DNA from: a virus
Direction: 5' to 3' (one strand)
Virus record (IMG/VR): IMGVR_UViG_3300001450_000031
Coordinates: 1-28,299 of that record
DNA length: 28,299 nt
Shown here in pieces: positions 2,084-19,417 of the stretch. How positions within the stretch are numbered: position 1 is the first letter of the stretch; every line of letters starts with the position of its first letter. Position numbers and translations under genes: made by a program. The notes under the pieces are model-generated. The model made no database searches and had not been told where the DNA came from. It worked only from the letters and a program-made list of their open reading frames with translations.

Positions 2084-3745
2084 TTAGATTCTATTTAATC
2101 CTGCTACATGGATCTTACCATAAAATTCTGGTCTTACCATTTTCTTAGCATAACGAGTCATTACACCTTTACGTGGAGTAAAGTTTGTAGGATCGTAAAC
2201 TAAAGGAGTCATAATTAACGGAATATATGGTGCGTAAACCGCTCCAGTTTCCAAGAATTGTGTTCCTCTAAAGCCCATCAAGATAGTATTTTCCTTCATG
2301 TATGGGTTTTTGTAAACAGTAAATCTAGAGTTTAATGCTCCAACTTTTTGTACACCCATTGCAAATGACATTGCATTTCCATCAGTATCTGCAGCATATC
2401 CTGGGATTGATTCTAGGATTGTCGCAACTTCTGGAGAAGTTACTAAGAAGTTTGCACCACCTCTAAGAGTTTTTTGGTGAATCTTGTTAGAAACTTTTTG
2501 GATTTTAGTACCTAAAGTTTGGAACCATGTGAATTGTGTATAAGCTTCTGCAGCCGTTGGGCTTAAGAAAGCGTCTGAACCATTGTATGTTTCACCTAAT
2601 GCAGCCGACCAGTAGTCAGTTGTATTTGCATTTGCAAGAAGCATATCTAAAATTTCAAGATCAATTTCCATTGAAATATACTCAGATAACATTGAAGTTA
2701 ATTCAGCTTCAGCGTCAATTGAGTGATATGCATTTAAGTCTTGTGCGAATTCTGGAGACCATGCAGCTTTAAGCTTTCTAGTCTTAGCAACAATCGCTTC
2801 AGATCTTAAATCAACATCAATTTGTGGAATTCCAACATCTTGAGTGTCTAGTGAAGCATCAACGTTAGAACCAACCATTTCAAAGTCGTTTCTTTGGTCA
2901 GCTGTTGTAGCTCCCATGAAATGAACTTTAATACCGTTTTCTGAGTGACCAGCACCACCTGTTGCAGCAGAAACAGATACAAAGAAGTTTGCAGTTGTTC
3001 CATTAACAAAGTTATATGCATTTAAGTTTCTGTCTACAGACATAGAAATTGCAGCTGTTTGTCCTTGTAAACTTTCAACATATGCACTTCTAATTGCAGT
3101 TTCATCCAGTATAAATGTACCATCAGTTACAGATGAAACAGCAACTGCTTGTTTAATTACTTGACCAGCAGCTACAGATGCAGAAAGATCAGCACTAAAG
3201 CCAACATCTTTCCAAGTTGCAGATGAAGATGCGAAAGTAGTAACCGTAACGTCTCTCATTTTAGTAGTATATCCAGCTCTACCACCTCCTGCAGGTGTAT
3301 TACCATATAATCCACCAACTGGGTCTGAGTTAGACTTAGATGTATTACCCATGATATCGCCAGCATAAGCTCCACCATAGTTTGAATTTGTGTCCGTACC
3401 ATACTTAAAGTCTAAGAAAAATACTAGACCAGATGGTAAGTTCATCGGTTGTACGCTTACGAAGTCTTTTGCAGCGATTTCGCCGAAGACTCTACGTACT
3501 AATGGAAGAGCTACGCCCGACCATTGTTCTTTACTCGCAGTACCACTTGAAGTGTTATTAGCCTCGTCGATTAACTGACGTGCTTGATTTTCTAAAAGTA
3601 CAGCCATGCCTGATTTCTCATACTCATGTCCGATTCCTTCTAGTAAACCTGTTTTATCCCACTTATTTACTAACCCTCTTGTTTCTTCAAGCTTGTCAGT
3701 ATATGTAGTATTTGCAGAGTTTAATAAATTTGAAATGTTTGCCAT
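2084..3745 (-). CDS. 23: Major capsid protein, T4 gp23-like
   Basis: 553 residues, close to T4 gp23 (521). Hallmarks are the segment MAVLLENQARQLIDEA (47-62), then WSGVALPLVRRVFGEIAAKD (75-94) and FVSVQPMNLPSGLVFFLDFK (95-114). The C-terminus reads RPEFYGKIHVAGLNRI. It forms the hexamers of the prohead shell. Residues 59-62 read IDE|A, matching the gp21 protease consensus (I/L)xE|A and lying where T4 gp23 is cut (after residue 65), so the mature protein probably starts near A62. The start ATG has a TAGGAG Shine-Dalgarno. It follows gp22 by 29 nt and is closed by the terminator at 2031-2059. Confidence 0.98.
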   Translation of the reverse strand: MANISNLLNSANTTYTDKLEETRGLVNKWDKTGLLEGIGHEYEKSGMAVLLENQARQLIDEANNTSSGTASKEQWSGVALPLVRRVFGEIAAKDFVSVQPMNLPSGLVFFLDFKYGTDTNSNYGGAYAGDIMGNTSKSNSDPVGGLYGNTPAGGGRAGYTTKMRDVTVTTFASSSATWKDVGFSADLSASVAAGQVIKQAVAVSSVTDGTFILDETAIRSAYVESLQGQTAAISMSVDRNLNAYNFVNGTTANFFVSVSAATGGAGHSENGIKVHFMGATTADQRNDFEMVGSNVDASLDTQDVGIPQIDVDLRSEAIVAKTRKLKAAWSPEFAQDLNAYHSIDAEAELTSMLSEYISMEIDLEILDMLLANANTTDYWSAALGETYNGSDAFLSPTAAEAYTQFTWFQTLGTKIQKVSNKIHQKTLRGGANFLVTSPEVATILESIPGYAADTDGNAMSFAMGVQKVGALNSRFTVYKNPYMKENTILMGFRGTQFLETGAVYAPYIPLIMTPLVYDPTNFTPRKGVMTRYAKKMVRPEFYGKIHVAGLNRI

Positions 3746-3774: not shown

Positions 3775-4824
3775 CTAAAGTAGACCTGCCAATTTTTTCA
3801 TTCGATTTGTAAATTGATCTGCCTCTACAATCACTTTTCGTGATGGTTTAGTAGATCGTGTAGTTTTTGAAGCAAAGCTTTCCTTTATAGTTCGCTTTTT
3901 GCTTGCACCTGAACTTAAAGATTCAGCTAAAGTAGAGTAAACTAATTTAACTTCTCTTGTTGATACTGCTCTGTCGAAAGTTTCAATGATTTTCATCTTC
4001 TGACCTTCAGTTAAGTTATGCGATTTGAATAACTTGTTAGAGAATAAAAGTTTTGCGTTTAATAAATTAACTTCATTTATAGTAGATTTCATAGTTTTAA
4101 TAGTACTATAAGCTTCTTCTAATCTTTCTGTTAAATCACTAACTTTTTCAGATTCACCTTCCATACCGTCTTCAGATTCATTAACTTCTTCGTCATCATC
4201 TTCTTCTTTTAAAGATTTAATAATTTCGTCTAAGTCAAGTTCTTCTTCTCCATCAGTAGTTTCTTCTTCTTCAGCCTCATAAGCCATTTCAGTAGGATCT
4301 TCTTCAGTTTCTTCCATTTCTTCGTCATGCATTTCTTCAACGTCTTCAGTTTCTTCAACTTCTTCGCCTTCTTCGCCTTCAAGTTCTCTAATAATAGCCT
4401 CTAGGTCAAGGTCTTCTTCTTCTTCTTCATCCATGTTAGCCATTTCAGTTTCAGTTTCATCGTCCTCTTCTCCTTCGTCCATTGTTTCTTCTTCTTCCTC
4501 TTCTTCAGTGAGTTTGTTAACAACAGTGTTGTTTTCATCCTCTGTACCATAGGCACCTGATTCAGTATCAGTTTCAGATTTTTCTTCGTCATTTCCATCA
4601 GCAACGTCGACTTTATTGTCGCCACTTCCAATGTTTGATGAGTCAGATTGCTCTTCAATTTCGTCTCCATCTTCTTCAGTCTCTTCTTCTATTTTTCTAG
4701 AAAGCATAGATTGAATTTTTGGAGTGAACGCTTCTTCAAGAGCAAGTCGTGCATTTGCAATAGCTGTTTCTCTGACAGCCTTAGCGTCAGCAATAGCTTC
4801 TTTTAGCAAGTTTGATTTTGCCAT
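3775..4824 (-). CDS. 22: Prohead core scaffold protein, T4 gp22-like
   Basis: 349 residues from the ATG at 4824 (MAKSNLLKEAIADAKAVR), which has GAGGAG 7 nt upstream. A longer reading from a TTG at 4839 would place the Shine-Dalgarno inside the gene, so I reject it. The order is a helical N-terminus, then about 170 residues dominated by Glu/Asp, then a helical C-terminal domain with ERLEEAYSTIKTMKSTINEV and FDRAVSTREVKLVYSTLAES, a pattern typical of marine T4-like gp22. It builds the internal core on which gp23 assembles and is degraded by gp21. Immediately upstream of gp23, as in T4. The acidic stretch is GAA/GAT/GAG repeat-like DNA. Confidence 0.9.
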   Translation of the reverse strand: MAKSNLLKEAIADAKAVRETAIANARLALEEAFTPKIQSMLSRKIEEETEEDGDEIEEQSDSSNIGSGDNKVDVADGNDEEKSETDTESGAYGTEDENNTVVNKLTEEEEEEETMDEGEEDDETETEMANMDEEEEEDLDLEAIIRELEGEEGEEVEETEDVEEMHDEEMEETEEDPTEMAYEAEEEETTDGEEELDLDEIIKSLKEEDDDEEVNESEDGMEGESEKVSDLTERLEEAYSTIKTMKSTINEVNLLNAKLLFSNKLFKSHNLTEGQKMKIIETFDRAVSTREVKLVYSTLAESLSSGASKKRTIKESFASKTTRSTKPSRKVIVEADQFTNRMKKLAGLL

Positions 4825-5454: not shown

Positions 5455-6495
5455 TTATCTAAGATCGATATAGTCTTTACTTGCATCTACTTTTTTAAGA
5501 TCTAGCTTTAATGTTTTGAAATATTTTTGTATACTTCTTGCATATTTAATCATTTCTTTTTGATAATATTTTTCTTCACTCCAAGAGGCTTTATCACCAG
5601 ACTTTAACTTATTGGCTTTATCTCTGTCTGCACCTTTAACTGCACTATTTTCTGCTCGTAAATAGTACTCAAAATCTTGTAGTATATCTCTATAAGCTCT
5701 ATTAATTTTACTAGCAGAATCATTCCAACCAGAAGAAACCTTTTTCTTTTTTAACATGTCTAATTGTTTATCAACAGACGCTTTATACATCTTTGTCACA
5801 GCATCTACCATTTTAATTATTTGGTCGCCTGGACTAGAATTTGCTAATCTATCTCTTAGTATTGTTTCGTATCTACTTCTGTTTTGTTGGGCAACTGTTT
5901 TTGCACCAATAAGTGCAGTTGCTCCTACTTTTGCAGCTGCTCTATCAGCTTTTTTACCACCAGATGAACCTATTTTAGTAAGGTCAATAGTAATTACTTC
6001 ATCAGCAACCTCTGCAAACCTTTTATAGTTGTGTAGGTTTTCAGTATTACCTCCCATTGGGGAACCAGTACTACGTCCTTTAGATTTTTCACCAGTAGCA
6101 GAATATGTTGATTTACCAGTGCCTCTGTCGTATCTGTCTCTACTAACGTGGATCTTTTCTTTTCCTCTAGTTACACCAATAAGTCCTGGTCTAATTGTAC
6201 CTTCCCACGAATAGCCACTTTTTACAAATGGATTTCTTTTATCTTTATTTACAAAAAAGAAGTTTACTAGTTTAGGGTCCGGACCTTTACCGAAAGCTTC
6301 TTCTGGCGCGTTTGCCCAATCTACATCATATGATTTTGCAAATGCTTGAAAGAATTTTGCGTCTGAGCCTTTTAATTTGCCGTATAATTTACTAGCAGTT
6401 TTAGACTGAAACTTTTCGTTTAGCGATTGTTTCTTTTCTTTAAGTACATTAAGTATTGTTTCCTTTACTAATTTTCTAAATGCTGATTTTTTCAT
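5455..6495 (-). CDS. Unrecognised basic protein, candidate internal head protein
   Basis: 346 residues from ATG 6495 (MKKSAFRKLVKETILNVLKE), chosen because GGAG lies 8 nt upstream. Alternatives are 6501, 6510 (forming TAATG with the upstream stop) and 6525. I recognise no family. Visible features are an N-terminal amphipathic helix with LVKE|T, LKE|K and SLNE|K peptides, a central K/R/S/G-rich part (SATGEKSKGRSTGSPMGGN), and a long helical Lys-rich C-terminal half. It sits between gp21 and gp22, the position where T4-type core and internal proteins cluster, so packaging in the head is plausible. A nuclease or ADP-ribosyltransferase fold cannot be judged by eye. Confidence 0.7.
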   Translation of the reverse strand: MKKSAFRKLVKETILNVLKEKKQSLNEKFQSKTASKLYGKLKGSDAKFFQAFAKSYDVDWANAPEEAFGKGPDPKLVNFFFVNKDKRNPFVKSGYSWEGTIRPGLIGVTRGKEKIHVSRDRYDRGTGKSTYSATGEKSKGRSTGSPMGGNTENLHNYKRFAEVADEVITIDLTKIGSSGGKKADRAAAKVGATALIGAKTVAQQNRSRYETILRDRLANSSPGDQIIKMVDAVTKMYKASVDKQLDMLKKKKVSSGWNDSASKINRAYRDILQDFEYYLRAENSAVKGADRDKANKLKSGDKASWSEEKYYQKEMIKYARSIQKYFKTLKLDLKKVDASKDYIDLR

Positions 6496-6509
6496 TGCCA
6501 TTTTCTCCA

Positions 6510-7079
6510 TTACCATTTTTTCCATATGGGGCTATCTGAATTATTCTTTTTTCCAGTTGCTATTCCCCAACGTTGTCCAGCCTTTCCACCAACTCTAGGA
6601 GATATAGTTTCATTTTTTATAGCCTTTGAAACTGTTTTTCTCCTGTTGGCTAAATATTCGTCAGATTTATCTTCATCACCGTCATTATCTATATCACCAT
6701 CTTCTTTTCCAACTGGATCAAGTTTTTCAGCTAGTTCGTAATATCTACCAAGTTTGCCTCCAAGATCTTCATATAGTGATTCAAGTCTTTGTTGTAAAGA
6801 TTCCATTTCTAAAGCAGCTTTTTCAAATAGTTTCGATGTGTTATTTATTTCTTTAACGTCTCTTTTTACAGTTACTCCGTCAAACCAACTTTCTGTTTCA
6901 GACATAATATAATTTCCTGCACCTGAAGAGAGTCTTTTTATAGCTTCTACAACGTCTTTTATATTGTTTTCTCTGTATATGCTATTACCATACTCATTGA
7001 ATTTTGAAACAGCCTCTACAAATGCTTGTTTTTGTTCTGGTGATAACTTAGATTCTTTTAATATTTTCTTTAATTTCAT
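6510..7079 (-). CDS. Candidate core/internal head protein with EF-hand-like loop
   Basis: 189 residues. It starts MKLKKILKE|SKLSPEQ, resembling the T4 capsid-targeting peptide in length and ending in (I/L)xE. Residues 85-120 are a predicted coiled coil (LEMESLQQRLESLYEDLGGK). Residues 129-140 (DIDNDGDEDKSD) match a calcium-binding EF-hand/dockerin-type loop with Asp at positions 1, 3, 5, 7, 9 and 12 and Gly at 6, followed by EYLANRRKTVSKAI. The same loop plus YLxxRR occurs in other marine T4-like head proteins as I remember them. Start ATG with AAGGAG. The stop overlaps the longest possible start of the next gene. Exact function unknown. Confidence 0.7.
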   Translation of the reverse strand: MKLKKILKESKLSPEQKQAFVEAVSKFNEYGNSIYRENNIKDVVEAIKRLSSGAGNYIMSETESWFDGVTVKRDVKEINNTSKLFEKAALEMESLQQRLESLYEDLGGKLGRYYELAEKLDPVGKEDGDIDNDGDEDKSDEYLANRRKTVSKAIKNETISPRVGGKAGQRWGIATGKKNNSDSPIWKKW

Positions 7080-7091
7080 TATATTGTCTCC

Positions 7092-7376
7092 TTATCTTTG
7101 TAGTACTAATATGAATGTTGTAGCATTATCTGATTCTGCACCTGCTAATCCTATTTCATGAACAACACCAATAGCTAAATCATCTAGTTCTATTGTTCCA
7201 CCTCTTGCTAACTTAACCCTACCTAAAATAGTAGAACCAGATATCATAAAGGCTGATGCACCTAAATCACTAGAGCCTGAACTAAAATCCCTAAATTTAT
7301 TACTTACAATTTGTACACCATTGTATCTTCCAAATGGTCCAAACTTATTTAATTCATCAGTTACTAATCCTGCCAT
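7092..7376 (-). CDS. Small structural protein downstream of gp21
   Basis: 94 residues from the ATG at 7376, which overlaps the gp21 stop as TAATG and has GGAGG 6 nt upstream. A TTG start at 7394 would bury the Shine-Dalgarno. The sequence (MAGLVTDELNKFGPFGRYNG, ending DNATTFILVLQR) is beta-prone with SGSTILGRVKLARGGTIEL. Not recognised. Position within the head cluster and coupled translation with gp21 suggest a capsid accessory or decoration role, which is inference only. Confidence 0.7.
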   Translation of the reverse strand: MAGLVTDELNKFGPFGRYNGVQIVSNKFRDFSSGSSDLGASAFMISGSTILGRVKLARGGTIELDDLAIGVVHEIGLAGAESDNATTFILVLQR

Positions 7377-8044
7377 TATTTTCCTCCACAACAAGAATCA
7401 TCAGCTATAGCTGGTATTTCACATTTACCAGTCATTTCGCAAAGAATATCTGAAATTAAGCTGTTCATTTTGCTATATTTATTTGTTTTTATATTTTTGT
7501 TAACACTTTCGTTCATATTAGTTGGGTGCATAAATGCTCCATGGGTTGAAGGATTACTAACAAAGTCCCAGCATATTAGTTCAAAGTCATCTTTAACCTT
7601 AACCATTTGATCGCCGTCTTCGTAAAGTTCTTCTACACTGCCTAAACCTCTAGAACTTATACCTAATTTTACACCAGCCTTTAATAATTCTTTAAGAATA
7701 TTACCTGCAGGGGTTCCAAGTACTTCTACCTCTCCCATCACATCATCGCCTTTCCACCAAACATTTTTTACATTATGGGAAACATTTTGTAAATTAACAA
7801 CGCTTGATTCTGGGTGATCTAATTCTCCTAAAGCTCTGCTTTCAGCAATGTTTATTTTTTTGTAGTTTTTAACCTCTCGCATTAAAATTTCTCGAGGATA
7901 AACCCTTCCATTTTGGTTTTTTGCGTCAGCCCTTTGTAAACACCCAGTTACAATAACTCTACCATTATTTTTTCTTTCAGATTCCACAATCATTTGAGGG
8001 GAAATGTCAAAGCTCGTATAATCTATTAAAAGTTTTTTATTCAT
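7376..8044 (-). CDS. 21: Prohead maturation protease, T4 gp21-like
   Basis: 222 residues, similar to T4 gp21 (212). Serine protease of the herpesvirus-assemblin/gp21 class. The start region has RVIVTGCLQRADAKNQNGRV then YPREIL. The catalytic His lies in GELDHP (H77) and the Ser in KLGISSRGLGS (S130 or S131). The signature DFVSNPSTHGAFM (160-172) is typical. It cleaves scaffold, capsid and internal proteins after (I/L)xE. The tail after about residue 178 ends DDSCCGGK, with four Cys in the last 21 residues, which is unusual. Shine-Dalgarno AAGGGA. It lies between the gp20-linked genes and gp22, as in T4. Confidence 0.93.
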   Translation of the reverse strand: MNKKLLIDYTSFDISPQMIVESERKNNGRVIVTGCLQRADAKNQNGRVYPREILMREVKNYKKINIAESRALGELDHPESSVVNLQNVSHNVKNVWWKGDDVMGEVEVLGTPAGNILKELLKAGVKLGISSRGLGSVEELYEDGDQMVKVKDDFELICWDFVSNPSTHGAFMHPTNMNESVNKNIKTNKYSKMNSLISDILCEMTGKCEIPAIADDSCCGGK

Positions 8045-14181: not shown

Positions 14182-15459
14182 TTAATATTCAAATGGAGGT
14201 GTACCATAGTCTTTTTGACTTATACCATACCAAATATTTCCTACTTGATAGTACCACCATCCATGTTTATTGTCTTCTATAATCTTAAACTTGCCCTTTG
14301 GTAGAGGTGAGTCTTTTTTAGAAGCTCTTGCAATGTATTTTAATACGGGTACTCCATCATCCCATGTTTTATCTGTTTTTCTAGCCTTTACAGATTTTCT
14401 TTTTTCTGTATTAGTTGCCATATGAAGCTTAAATGCTGAATCATCTCCTAAAAAGCTTTTCCATACATCTTCATTTAATTTGCCTTCATTTAACTTGCCT
14501 TCTTTAATGGTTAGAAAAGCTTTTACCATCGGTGCTCCACTAGCTCCTTGCTTCCATTTCATTATATCTTTAACAGCAGCTAACTTTATCTTCTTAACTA
14601 CCGCTTCTGTATCCCATAATTGTTTGCCGTTCCAATTAAACTTATTATCGCCTACTTTTGTAAATGTCATTTTGTAAGCTAGTATCTTGCCACCTATTTT
14701 AAGGTCTTTCATTCTCATTCTAAGGTTAACTCTAAAATTAGCTGCTCTCTGAGAGAAGTCTTCATTTAATTTGCCTTCATTAACACCTTCAAAAGCTGAT
14801 TTAGTTGGTTTTCCTTTGAGAGCTTGTTTGCATTCTTTATTGAATCTTTTTAACCAACCAGTAGCTTGTGATGCATATCCATCTTGCATCTTTTCAATAG
14901 CCATGTTTAGTGTAGATGCTATTTCATCTGCATATTCATCATCTATTCTATCAAATTTATCTGATAGTTTAACTAGTGCATCTTCACCAACCTTTTTAGT
15001 GATCTTTGAACCTATAGTTAATAGTGGTTTTAGCCCTCTTGCTAACGCTTCATTAACTTTGCCTTCTTTATTTATAGACTTAGCAGCTTTAACGGCATCT
15101 TTGTGTGCTTTAGAGTTTTTATGTGCTGGTTTTTCGCCTCTTTTTCTTTTGGCATGTATATTTGCCCAAAGTCCTTTACTTTTTTCCGTTAACTCATCCT
15201 CGATTGGCTCTGTTTGTAGTGCTTTGTTAAAGTCTTTTTCAGCCTTTACTACTTGTGCATGCATTTTTATTAGACCTTGTTTTAGTTTTTCTTTTTTCTT
15301 AGGGTCTTTTTCACTAACAAAGGCTTTCCTTAACTCTTGCTGATTTAACTGGATTTTTTTATATGTTTCAATTGCTTTAGTAAAATTTTTTGTAATACTT
15401 TCTAGTAAAACACTAACTAGTTCATCAGCTATTATTTCTTTTAATATTTTTTTTTTCAT
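14182..15459 (-). CDS. Modular protein with repeated GKLNE cleavage-like motifs
   Basis: 425 residues with no whole-length family recognised. The N-terminus MKKKILKE|IIADELVSVLLE|S resembles capsid-targeting peptides. (E)GK(L/V)NE occurs at residues 132-137, 228-233, 320-325 and 326-330 and splits the protein into parts: a Lys-rich helical part; a basic linker with KGLWANIHAKRKRGEKP (96-112), a short motif I recall from many marine phage proteins; a helical domain (138-227); an alpha/beta piece (234-319, NKFNWNGKQLWD); and a beta-rich C-terminal piece (331-425) ending WYYQVGNIWYGISQKDYG. Each repeat fits (L/V)NE|(A/G/D). I infer a polyprotein of internal head proteins cut by gp21. A simpler reading is linker repeats in one structural protein. 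Confidence 0.7.
   Translation of the reverse strand: MKKKILKEIIADELVSVLLESITKNFTKAIETYKKIQLNQQELRKAFVSEKDPKKKEKLKQGLIKMHAQVVKAEKDFNKALQTEPIEDELTEKSKGLWANIHAKRKRGEKPAHKNSKAHKDAVKAAKSINKEGKVNEALARGLKPLLTIGSKITKKVGEDALVKLSDKFDRIDDEYADEIASTLNMAIEKMQDGYASQATGWLKRFNKECKQALKGKPTKSAFEGVNEGKLNEDFSQRAANFRVNLRMRMKDLKIGGKILAYKMTFTKVGDNKFNWNGKQLWDTEAVVKKIKLAAVKDIMKWKQGASGAPMVKAFLTIKEGKLNEGKLNEDVWKSFLGDDSAFKLHMATNTEKRKSVKARKTDKTWDDGVPVLKYIARASKKDSPLPKGKFKIIEDNKHGWWYYQVGNIWYGISQKDYGTPPFEY
14470..14499. repeat. Tandem 15-bp repeat encoding GKLNE GKLNE
   Basis: TTCATTTAATTTGCC and TTCATTTAACTTGCC lie head to tail (one mismatch). An identical third copy is at 14761-14775 and a diverged fourth at 15049-15063. 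All encode GK(L/V)NE in the same frame of one gene. Conserved spacing to domain edges suggests selection at the peptide level. Confidence 0.85.
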
Positions 15460-16340: not shown

Positions 16341-18719
16341 TTAGAAAGTCATCATGCCAGCAATTTGATTTACTGGTGCAAATGCTCCTGTTAATTTATA
16401 CGTATTTCCTTTATATATAAAAACTAATCCTTCACTTGGAATTATAGTTTTAAATCCTCCTATTGAAGCAACCTTTTTTAGCTGTTGAGTCATTCTATTT
16501 AATTTTTTAAGGTCTCCACCTTTTCTAACATCACTAATTGCTTTTGCAACCTGTTTTCTGACGTTTTGAATTGCTTTGTCTGGGTTTGCAGCTAAAAAAC
16601 CCTCTACGTTTTTAAGTACTTCAGCACCTAGTTCAAAGAATATAGTTTCAAATGGTAGCATATTTTTCTTTACCTGGTCTGCGTGATTTAGTTTATCAAA
16701 ATCTTTAGCTTTGGCTAATATTGCTTCATCAGAAATTGTTTTTTTATCTAATCTAAAAGATTTATCAAAAAATGCCCAACGTTTAACCAATCCCATTTTA
16801 ATTGTATTATCAATACCTTTTATTTTTGTGTCAACAAAATTTTCCCACCATACTTGGTGATAATATGAAAAAGAATCTGAATCTTTCATTTTATATTTTT
16901 TCATAAGTTTACTTAATTTACTTAAAAAATATGGTTTTTTAGCTGAATAGTCTTGGTGAGGATTTATTTTAAGAATCTTTGGGCCTATAATAGAAAAGTT
17001 TTTTTGTACCGATTGATTTATTTGCGCAATCATTCCCGCAAGTATTCTTGCACCATCACTAACTGATCCAATTGCTGTACCTCCCTTATATTTTAATACA
17101 TTATGGAATTGTAAATATGGTGCGTCATAGGTAATTACGTTTGCAGATGCTGGAAACATGATTTCCATATTTACCCAATTGTTACCGTTATCAAATATTT
17201 TTTCTTGTTGTTTTAGATTAAGGCTTCCTATTGCTTTTTCAAGATCTTTCATTGCAAAAGTGAAGGCCTTTTCTATATTACCTCTACCTTTAAATTTTGA
17301 AGCAACTGCTTTGTAATCCATTCCTCCCTTTTTAAGGTCTCCAGTATTTCTAGCTGCTAGCATTTTACCGTTCCAACTTACAAATAGGTTTTGTCCATCT
17401 GTTTTTTCAGTTGCTGCTTTTTCTAGGTCAAGATTTCCTTGGAGTGCAAGGTCTATAATTTGTTTAAAGTCTCCAAAGGTTAAATTTCTATCATCAAAGG
17501 GGTGTGACATATGGCCATAGGCTCCTCCTTCTAATAATAATTGTTTTGCAATCCATTGTCCTAAATTTTCATTAGTAGTATTTACAGATATATTTTTTGG
17601 AAAAGAAACTTTTTTTCCTAGTTTTTGTTTTTTAAGGGTATTTTTAATATTGCTCATTTCTTTACTTTGTTTTATAGGTTCTTTTTTGGATTGCTTAATT
17701 GATTTTTCTGCCCCTAAGTACTCTATGAATTTAAACCCTGATTGTTGTGCTAAATATTTTGACCAACGTTTCCACCTATTATATGCTGCCGTACCAACTC
17801 TATCCTTTATATAATTTGTACCTCCAGATACATTAGCAGCTCCTGTTGCAGGTATACCAACAGGAAAATAAGATACACCGCCAGTGGGTCCATCAGGGTA
17901 TGCTGTTCCGTGTTGAAAAAATTCTTCTTCTGGTACAAGATAATTTAGTACATTCATACCTAACCTAAATGCCATTTTTTTAGTATCTGTCCTATATGAT
18001 TTTTGGGTACCATAAAAATATCTTGGACCATCATCAACACCCCTTTGGCCTGGTAAAGTGTTACTTGCTTCCTTTATTATTTTTTTCAAATCAGTTTTAA
18101 TAAAGAAATTTTCCATAACTTCATTAAGCTTTTCTAATTTATTTACTATGAGTTCATAGTTTTTAGTATGGCCAAATATTCCTTTAAATACCTTTGTCTT
18201 TTCTTTTTTATCTAAGTCTTTATCACCTAAAGCCTTTCTAATTGCAGTACCACTCATTTCACCATAACCAGGTACTGTTAGGCTTACGTGGGGAGCTATA
18301 TATGTATATGCACCATCCTTATATCCAACCTCAGCTTTACCTTTCCAAGGCCTAAAAAACTTACCACCTAATCTACTAGCATCTTTTTTACCAACAACAA
18401 ATACTGCAGCTGTAGTTTTAGCATCGTATTTTTTTAATATTTCTTCTGCTTTATATGTGTTTTTAACCTGTACTACTTTAGAAATTCCATATGATTTTAT
18501 TATTTTTTTCTTTTCAGCAAATGTAAATGGAGACTTAGGCAAATCAACCTTACCACTGGTTGCTACATATGCGTCTTTGAATTTAGAACTAACATGTTTA
18601 TATACTTCAGCATGATGTTTACCCATAGGTTGAAATCTACCAGGATATATAGCAACAACTGTTGTTATCTTTTTTTCTTCTAAAAGTATTTGATTTGCTA
18701 CCCACTTACCTAAACTCAT
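16341..18719 (-). CDS. Fusion: nucleotidylyltransferase + middle domain + RNA-ligase-like domain
   Basis: 792 residues. Domain 1 (about 17-200) is a HIGH-superfamily nucleotidylyltransferase (NMNAT/cytidylyltransferase type): VVAIYPGRFQPMGKHHAEVY (21-40), where the first His of HxGH is Gly, and GEMSGTAIRKAL (153-164) as the ISTxxR-type motif. Domain 2 (about 218-385) is unrecognised (RGVDDGPRYFYGTQKSYRTD). Domain 3 (about 398-792) has covalent nucleotidyltransferase motifs: motif I KTDGQN (K439 candidate nucleophile), a motif III-like NMEIMF (E519), motif IV EGLVFIYKG (E763) and motif V YKLTG (K775), fitting an RNA-ligase-like enzyme. The peptides LGKWVANQILLEE (3-15), KKIIKE|A (212-218) and LGQWIAKQLLLE|G (386-398) sit at domain edges and resemble gp21 sites. 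The start overlaps the kinase stop (ATGA). Confidence 0.8.
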   Translation of the reverse strand: MSLGKWVANQILLEEKKITTVVAIYPGRFQPMGKHHAEVYKHVSSKFKDAYVATSGKVDLPKSPFTFAEKKKIIKSYGISKVVQVKNTYKAEEILKKYDAKTTAAVFVVGKKDASRLGGKFFRPWKGKAEVGYKDGAYTYIAPHVSLTVPGYGEMSGTAIRKALGDKDLDKKEKTKVFKGIFGHTKNYELIVNKLEKLNEVMENFFIKTDLKKIIKEASNTLPGQRGVDDGPRYFYGTQKSYRTDTKKMAFRLGMNVLNYLVPEEEFFQHGTAYPDGPTGGVSYFPVGIPATGAANVSGGTNYIKDRVGTAAYNRWKRWSKYLAQQSGFKFIEYLGAEKSIKQSKKEPIKQSKEMSNIKNTLKKQKLGKKVSFPKNISVNTTNENLGQWIAKQLLLEGGAYGHMSHPFDDRNLTFGDFKQIIDLALQGNLDLEKAATEKTDGQNLFVSWNGKMLAARNTGDLKKGGMDYKAVASKFKGRGNIEKAFTFAMKDLEKAIGSLNLKQQEKIFDNGNNWVNMEIMFPASANVITYDAPYLQFHNVLKYKGGTAIGSVSDGARILAGMIAQINQSVQKNFSIIGPKILKINPHQDYSAKKPYFLSKLSKLMKKYKMKDSDSFSYYHQVWWENFVDTKIKGIDNTIKMGLVKRWAFFDKSFRLDKKTISDEAILAKAKDFDKLNHADQVKKNMLPFETIFFELGAEVLKNVEGFLAANPDKAIQNVRKQVAKAISDVRKGGDLKKLNRMTQQLKKVASIGGFKTIIPSEGLVFIYKGNTYKLTGAFAPVNQIAGMMTF

Positions 18720-19417
18720 GATTTTCTCAACTCCAATTCTTTTTTAATCCACTGTTTAGCTATGTGGTTTTGTAATGGTTTTTTTATGAATTTATTTGCT
18801 CCTTTTTTAACAACATCTGGAAACTCTTTTTTTTCTGAATTATCAACAACAAGCATATTACTTGAACCAAAAAGCGCTTGGAATTTACCCATATTGTTTT
18901 GTACGGCTTGCCAAGAACTTTTTACTAATTCTGATGGAAGTTTTCTATCTCTTTCAAAATTTCTTTGTAAAGCTACCTCAAGATCAGTGTTTACAAAAAT
19001 CATAAAACAGTCATAACCTACAGCTTGTAGTTTCTTTTTTTGTTTTGCTATGTTTCCATAGTTTTTACCTGTTCCATCTATAAGAAGGCCAAGCCTTCCA
19101 TTAATATAGTTTCTAAGGGCAGTGTCTCTAACCTGTTTACTTTTATTTCGCAGTATCATTGCAAGTTTATGGTCATCATTACTGAGCTTTGATATATCTT
19201 GGCTTAATCCCTTCATTTGTAAAAATGTTTCAAAGTACTTATCACTATTAACAGATTTTAATCCTTGAGCAGAAACGAATGGCATTTTCTCTGGCATTCC
19301 AAAAAGTGAAGATGCAGCATATGATTTACCACTACCAGGACCACCCGCAGTAAACACTGCTTTGAAAATACCTGGATCGTATACACCTTCGTTTAGTATA
19401 TCTTTTAATTTAATCAT
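18716..19417 (-). CDS. P-loop kinase (zeta-toxin/polynucleotide-kinase-like)
   Basis: 233 residues. After a short N-terminal peptide MIKLKDILNE|G, residues 18-32 give the strand and Walker A (FKAVFTAGGPGSGKS; GGPGSGKS 25-32). NSDK (57-60) offers a catalytic Asp, LLIDGTGKN (111-119) is the Walker B region, and RNFERDRKLP (152-161) is an Arg-rich lid. This is the AAA_33/zeta-toxin fold that phosphorylates nucleotides, nucleic-acid ends or UDP-sugars; substrate unknown. The peptide ahead of the fold matches the T4 capsid-targeting pattern (10 residues ending LNE|G). No Shine-Dalgarno. The next gene encodes an RNA-ligase-like domain, so a kinase plus ligase end-repair pair is possible. Confidence 0.82.
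   Translation of the reverse strand: MIKLKDILNEGVYDPGIFKAVFTAGGPGSGKSYAASSLFGMPEKMPFVSAQGLKSVNSDKYFETFLQMKGLSQDISKLSNDDHKLAMILRNKSKQVRDTALRNYINGRLGLLIDGTGKNYGNIAKQKKKLQAVGYDCFMIFVNTDLEVALQRNFERDRKLPSELVKSSWQAVQNNMGKFQALFGSSNMLVVDNSEKKEFPDVVKKGANKFIKKPLQNHIAKQWIKKELELRKS

Follow-up and report, generated by a model that had tools for sequence, protein, structure and literature searches.

Overall, we believe that the 425-residue protein encoded on the minus strand at 14182..15459 of the window (the whole 28,299-nucleotide stretch analysed here, which is part of a 67,294-base record of a T4-like phage) is likely to be a polyprotein of basic, capsid-internal cargo modules that is cut by the prohead protease and shuffled at its spacers. 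The repeats, the shuffling, the conservation of the joint motif at the protein level, the matching sites in the capsid protein and the protease, and the stand-alone modules behind targeting-like peptides are shown here. That the protein is cut, packaged and injected, and what its modules do, is inferred, and the cutting has no peptide or gel evidence behind it. The original prediction, made from sequence alone, read the repeats as a spacer cassette for producing several small internal proteins from one gene; that reading is supported, with the cleavage and packaging of the products unproven.

The genes for PhoH, the major capsid protein, an acidic scaffold, the prohead protease, the portal and the large terminase all lie on the minus strand, and the terminase finds its best matches in Flavobacterium phage immuto and Microcystis phage Mel-JY01, at ~58% identity. 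The 425-residue gene adjoins a holin-like gene and the terminase, and its product carries a total charge of ~ +34 with a pI of 9.8. It opens with the targeting-like peptide MKKKILKEIIADELVSVLLE (residues 1-20; 15400..15459, minus strand, as are all features of this gene), which has the (L/I)-x-E ending of a T4-type targeting peptide as LKE8 and as LLE20↓S, where ↓ marks a putative cut site or module joint here and below. There follow a constant, helical N module ending in LTE↓K (residues 21-92; 15184..15399) and the GLWANIHAKRKRGEK or GLWANIH module (residues 93-132; 15064..15183), which has a charge of +10 when taken together with its spacer (93-137). Spacer 1, GKVNE (residues 133-137; 15049..15063), with a predicted cut at E137↓A138, separates this from module A (LARGLKPLL...SAFE, residues 138-225; 14785..15048); spacer 2, GKLNE (residues 229-233; 14761..14775), preceded by a VNE at 226-228 and with a predicted cut at E233↓D234, leads into module B (residues 234-317; 14509..14760); and spacer 3, the tandem site IKEGKLNEGKLNE (residues 318-330; 14470..14508), with a predicted cut at E330↓D331, leads into the constant C module (DVWKSFLGDD...TPPFEY, residues 331-425; 14185..14469). 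By calculation, all of these modules are basic, at ~5-11 kDa and pI 8.7-10.5.

Four copies of GK(L/V)NE, one in tandem, had been claimed for this protein, and they are present at residues 133-137, 229-233, 321-325 and 326-330, the earlier numbering being off by no more than one residue. In 200,000 composition-preserving shuffles the pentapeptide never appeared in more than one copy, and the protein likewise holds five (L/I/V)NE against 0.28 expected and 12 (L/I/V)xE against 5.5 expected. An additional (L/I/V)xE lies directly upstream in two of the three spacer regions (GVNE-GKLNE and TIKE-GKLNE-GKLNE). The claim of near-identical DNA at three sites also held: the sequence GGCAAATTAAATGAA is shared exactly by the copies at 229 and 326, and at 321 it carries a single-base difference. 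The MKKKILKE start is as described, but the position conserved in relatives is the later LLE20↓S, their N-terminal peptides ending in LSE↓A, LNE↓A or ILE↓S. LNE does recur in the kinase (residues 8-10) and in the gene at 5455 (residues 35-37), as had been stated; KE↓G, said to recur in the same two genes, was found in neither. (L/I/V)xE is a short motif, some of its occurrences in the protein will be chance and some may go uncut, and single sites cannot be called with certainty.

The modular reading would be undermined if the repeats lay inside a continuous fold. This is not what the AlphaFold2 model indicates, although its overall confidence is low (mean pLDDT 58.5, pTM 0.31): the better predicted stretches, at ~25-80, 142-222 and 330-425, are separate from one another, and each GK(L/V)NE falls within or at the edge of a stretch with pLDDT <50 (125-141, 224-266 and 298-329). 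The L053 copy of module B was left out of the underlying alignment, having aligned wrongly on the N-terminus; module B by itself, with its one relative, was also poorly predicted (mean pLDDT 51). The prediction is compatible with linkers between independent domains and is weak evidence by itself. Nor did Pfam, PHROGs or Foldseek assign a family or fold to any module. Pfam gave nothing above its curated cut-off for the whole protein, and no embedded zincin-like metallopeptidase or other characteristic polyvalent domain; the significant PHROG matches were to families of unknown function only; and a Foldseek search of the model against the PDB returned mostly helical proteins and nothing at E 0.001 or better. 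The C module has a faint, sub-threshold YkuD match (E 0.14), no sequence relation to a known T4 internal protein or Alt was found with Pfam or PHROGs, and tblastn of the whole protein against isolate phages gave one weak match, to the GLWANIH module only. Because no module has an identified family or fold, the case for a cargo role is indirect.

An IMG/VR scan yielded 52 relatives of the protein, ~185 to 425 residues long, built on a constant N module behind a targeting-like peptide of 15-20 residues and a constant C module, with an interior that differs: the two either adjoin directly or enclose the GLWANIHAKRKRGEK module, module A, or modules of quite another kind. Alignment of homologues, suggested originally as a way to look for modules shuffled around a constant GKLNE, is thus positive for shuffling, but the spacer itself is not constant. 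Directly before the C module the joint reads KLNE, GLNE, SVNE, GINE, SINE, AINE, IIAE, ILTE, VITE or KLTE. The loss of the terminal Glu among homologues, which would have counted against the prediction, is not the pattern seen; the spacer varies while the Glu and the hydrophobic residue two before it stay. The C module is preceded by (L/I/V)xE with a P1 Glu in 21 of 22 distinct contexts and with L, V or I at P3 in all but the same one context (L022, where an LKLE lies four residues earlier). Module A has the P1 Glu in seven of eight contexts, the exception being FNE↓GT, and its hosts are otherwise unrelated, with joints such as MTE↓ALARG, LLTE↓ALARG, PVTE↓KLAKG, VVTE↓KLARG and VVNE↓KLAKG; module B recurs in L053 between GINE↓ and EGKLNE↓. 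Since the residues change across relatives while P1 and P3 persist, we conclude that selection acts on the protein. As a separate observation, one relative (L094, 13914-15044; the same gene occurs in L061, L063 and L065) carries module A inside a Glu-rich, scaffold-looking protein, after ELEESVVNE↓, and it is conceivable that in such genes the cargo rides on the scaffold protein itself.

The pattern extends past this gene to unrelated modules and other marine T4-like phages. The GLWANIH module was found in 72 distinct contexts, including cyanophage-like contigs, at anywhere from 12 to 651 residues after the start of the protein, and in 63 of them an (L/I/V/M/F)xE ends no more than five residues away; four of the nine exceptions begin at the initiator Met. 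It also stands alone behind targeting-like peptides, as in MKMKNILSE↓KGKGLWHNIH (L114) and MKLADIISE↓KNKGLW (L142). The best individual argument for processing is that a module can lie inside a protein in one genome and elsewhere lead its own gene behind a targeting-like peptide, in each case directly after (L/I)xE.

The enzyme that would do the processing is encoded in the same genome as the 425-residue gene, as a gp21-family prohead protease (Peptidase_S77; 7376..8044, minus strand; PF03420, E 9e-31). The T4 enzyme, gp21, cleaves C-terminal to L/I-X-E and divides gp22 and further core proteins into several pieces (PMC9026906). The module boundaries described here fit (L/I)-x-E, with V also occurring at P3, and the protease itself has IVE↓S at its N-terminus, with (L/I/V)xE↓S kept in most relatives. 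An S77 protease was detected in 11 of 18 records, and the remaining seven, without a detected match, may be incomplete. In one 132-kb relative (G005), the S77 match lies in an open frame of ~585 residues (L079), far above the usual gp21 size; (L/I/V)NE sites crowd its long tail. The major capsid protein (2084..3745, minus strand) carries LIDE61↓A near the position of the T4 gp23 maturation cut (residue 65); four relatives and Flavobacterium phage immuto retain this site, with LI(D/T/Q)E↓A or LVNE↓A as variants near residue 61. The gp22-like acidic scaffold (3775..4824, minus strand) contains 20 (L/I/V)xE sites.

The same motif marks other genes on the minus strand. A P-loop kinase of 233 residues (18716..19417), with a weak match to L-seryl-tRNA(Sec) kinase in a solved-structure library, begins MIKLKDILNE10↓GVYDPG, and across relatives this start, MIKLxDIL(N/S/T)E↓G, has the P1 Glu in 26 of 26 distinct upstream contexts while P2 varies. 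A protein of 189 residues (6510..7079) beginning MKLKKILKE↓S holds a LDPVGKEDGDIDNDGDEDKSDEYL module that is also found in cyanophage, pelagiphage and Flavobacterium phage proteins, and a protein of 356 residues (5455..6525) has SLNE37↓K, most relatives having (L/I)(N/T/S)E↓KF close to their N-terminus. A 792-residue fusion (16341..18719) consists of a nucleotidyltransferase-like domain behind the targeting-like SLGKWVANQILLE, a middle domain, and a ligase-like domain (GGAYGHM, EKTDG motif) that starts right after LGQWIAKQLLLE397↓ and has no sequence match in the solved-structure library. In 77 of 85 relative contexts an (L/I/V/M)xE lies exactly at the joint before the ligase-like domain, where P2 is unconstrained (L/T/V/I/S/N) and the positions ahead of P4 vary. 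The other eight (L254, L260, L266, L272, L274, L278, L279 and L281) all have LLLM in place of LLxE, and this Met could possibly be an internal start codon that yields nearly the same mature N-terminus without proteolysis. The ligase-like domain is also a stand-alone gene in the 462-kb phage LR756500.1, where it starts MKFLKSYEEFLNE↓NLILE↓GGSYGHLNHP, an N-terminus that, by analogy, resembles a T4-type targeting peptide. Two side observations concern the kinase. Its gene overlaps the start of the 792-residue fusion, whose nucleotidyltransferase-like domain carries GRFQPMGKHH and whose ligase-like domain carries EKTDG, the two genes together spanning 16341-19417, and in L267 and L281 the kinase and the ligase-like domain share one reading frame; we tentatively raise the possibility that kinase and ligase form a pair for RNA repair that is delivered along with the DNA.

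Internal (L/I/V)xE segments might alternatively be repeated targeting or scaffold-binding motifs that boost the packaging of an uncut protein. In favour of this, the segment before the ligase-like domain in the 792-residue gene and many of its relatives is similar to the peptide at the N-terminus of that gene (in the window, SLGKWVANQILLE and NLGQWIAKQLLLE), and the T4 targeting sequence is itself the segment that gp21 removes (PMC9026906). Against it, the spacers of the 425-residue gene are only 5-13 residues long and lack a helical, targeting-like part, so that the cut-site residues alone are held in common. We consider this alternative very unlikely.

A second objection is that the spacers are ordinary flexible linkers, predicted to be disordered, in phage proteins whose Lys- and Glu-rich composition makes chance (L/I/V)xE frequent. 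We addressed the frequency of the motif in 1,082 non-redundant proteins from relatives, taking as modules those BLAST segments that are common to otherwise unrelated proteins. (L/I/V/M)(N/T/S/A)E occurs at 57 of 317 module starts, whereas positions drawn at random from those proteins would be expected to give 19.7 (s.d. 4.2, with a maximum of 34 in 500 trials); in proteins with a targeting-like N-terminus it occurs at 37 of 142, against 13.2 expected. Control motifs of similar composition, (D/K/Q/S/R)xE, (L/I/V/M)xD and (L/I/V/M)xK, show no enrichment at module starts. Seven of the 10 motif-bearing starts in the tail-like control class are cargo-type genes matched by the pattern GPTG, and true tail or fibre genes show no enrichment, with three motif-bearing starts against ~3 expected. 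Nor would a linker be expected to keep P1 and P3 while leaving P2 free. Chance occurrence in ordinary linkers is thus, in our judgement, highly improbable as an explanation.

A third alternative deserves more weight, and holds that the spacers are DNA-level recombination joints without proteolysis, the modules remaining parts of one multidomain protein. Its support is that the spacer DNA varies less than its coding role would demand, and that one spacer is duplicated in tandem. The Gly codons of the spacers are GGC 11, GGT 8 and GGA 0, as compared with GGC 33, GGT 82, GGA 51 and GGG 5 in the rest of the spacer-bearing genes (Fisher's test, p = 0.0006 for GGC and p = 0.002 for GGA); this skew implies that the spacer DNA has been copied or kept alike, and it could aid homologous exchange. 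On the other hand, a given joint differs among relatives in its DNA and in most of its residues (KLNE, SVNE, GINE, IIAE, ILTE, VITE) but retains the P1 Glu and the hydrophobic P3, and single-domain genes obey this rule at their N-termini, as do the capsid protein and the protease, where module joints are absent. Recombination without cleavage is therefore unlikely. The alternative does not exclude processing, since the DNA may recombine and the protein be cut, and we think that both apply: the protein site is under selection, and the spacer DNA can serve as a joint.

For the polyprotein that we favour, a general pathway can be inferred. By inference from T4, where a targeting sequence of 10 N-terminal residues is all that internal proteins need (PMC9026906), the N-terminal peptide would direct entry into the prohead core. 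The gp21-family protease would then cut after the Glu of each (L/I/V)-x-E spacer, as inferred from the motif and its conservation, releasing four or five separate modules, with predicted products of residues 21-92, 93-137, 138-233, 234-330 and 331-425; LTE92↓K is the least certain of these cuts. Double sites such as GVNE-GKLNE would trim the linker off, and the released modules would presumably be ejected with the DNA into the host, again by inference from T4. The nearly identical spacer DNA may also supply homology for module exchange. Because each cut both terminates a module and frees the start of the one after it, modules could be gained, lost and exchanged without disturbing folding or processing. 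A single gene may in this way load the phage head with several proteins that are interchangeable.

The kind of system is known from T4 internal proteins and gp21 substrates; what is apparently new, within the literature we searched, is the modular, multi-cargo form. Work on T4 has established targeting sequences, cleavage by gp21 and a diversity of internal proteins (PMC9026906, PMC3012670, PMC12373910). T4 IPI, IPII, IPIII and Alt share with the present system small basic modules, an N-terminal peptide ending in (L/I)-x-E and an S77 protease in the same genome (PMC9026906, PMC3012670), and the mature parts of T-even internal proteins are similarly diverse behind a conserved targeting sequence. 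The T4 proteins, however, hold one cargo per gene and are cut N-terminally (Alt also C-terminally), whereas the 425-residue gene holds several modules with cut-site-like spacers. The T4 core proteins gp22, gp67 and gp68 have many (L/I)xE sites per polypeptide and are cut by gp21 into several pieces (PMC9026906), but these scaffold and core pieces mostly leave the head, and the segments described here are conserved, separately inherited modules. Head proteins of SPN3US and phiKZ have a gp21-related protease, a P1 Glu and several sites per protein, the SPN3US motif being A-X-E (PMC5694885, PMC10052503). Multiple propeptide cleavages are known for SPN3US (PMC10052503); the extra cuts reported in these phages fall within propeptides, and exchangeable cargo modules are not described there. 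Polyvalent proteins carry 2 to 15 domains per polypeptide, are thought to be delivered with the DNA and have been likened to viral polyproteins (Iyer et al. 2017, PMC5512222). With its separately inherited modules, the 425-residue protein meets the polyvalent criterion of at least two unrelated domains on one phage polypeptide; polyvalent proteins differ in having recognised domains and a proposed processing by an embedded zincin-like peptidase (PMC5512222), where we propose the prohead protease acting at spacers. A modular cargo polyprotein with prohead-protease joints was not described in the literature searched, from which subscription journals were mostly absent.

Further parallels lie in cyanophage Syn1, pelagiphage HTVC008M, Methylophilales phage Melnitz and Flavobacterium phage immuto, whose modular proteins, annotated as hypothetical protein or cytidyltransferase, share modules (GLWANIH type, LDPVGKED, WVQxKLTKA) separated by (L/I/V/M)xE; they differ in their module sets and spacer flavours (LEEKKK and VEEGKK in cyanophage-like contigs). 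Phage immuto is a culturable isolate, and its 841-residue hypothetical protein (L284, 8981-11506) has many (L/I/V/M)NE joints and shares modules with HTVC008M, cyanophages and the 189-residue protein of the window. A second immuto protein, of 907 residues (L284, 2106-4829), is annotated NadR-like and contains the HExxH-like motifs SHEMIHH and RHEIEHL; it may conceivably be a polyvalent protein with a metallopeptidase domain. An outside hint comes from cyanophage S-SM1, in whose virions a putative cytidylyltransferase (T4-GC190) has been detected (PMC3037559), the window's gene at 16341-18719 also having a nucleotidyltransferase-like domain.

A bolder reading, towards which we lean by a narrow margin, is that of a widespread polyprotein strategy among aquatic T4-like phages, in which the prohead protease is the processing enzyme and the cut site a standard cargo joint. 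In the same reading, and with no greater assurance, the kinase, the ligase-like enzyme and many small basic proteins of unknown function would be shuffled between genes and lineages, one late gene delivering several host-take-over or anti-defence proteins. If the polyprotein interpretation is right, (L/I/V)-x-E↓ joints behind a targeting-like N-terminus would mark the boundaries of injected cargo in abundant marine phages, in genes that are mostly annotated as hypothetical. A large pool of unknown multidomain open reading frames could then be resolved into individual candidate effectors and anti-defence proteins whose mature ends are predicted, and the cargo content of heads would become testable by ordinary virion proteomics. 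It would also mean that a double-stranded DNA phage uses its capsid protease for polyprotein processing in the style of RNA viruses.
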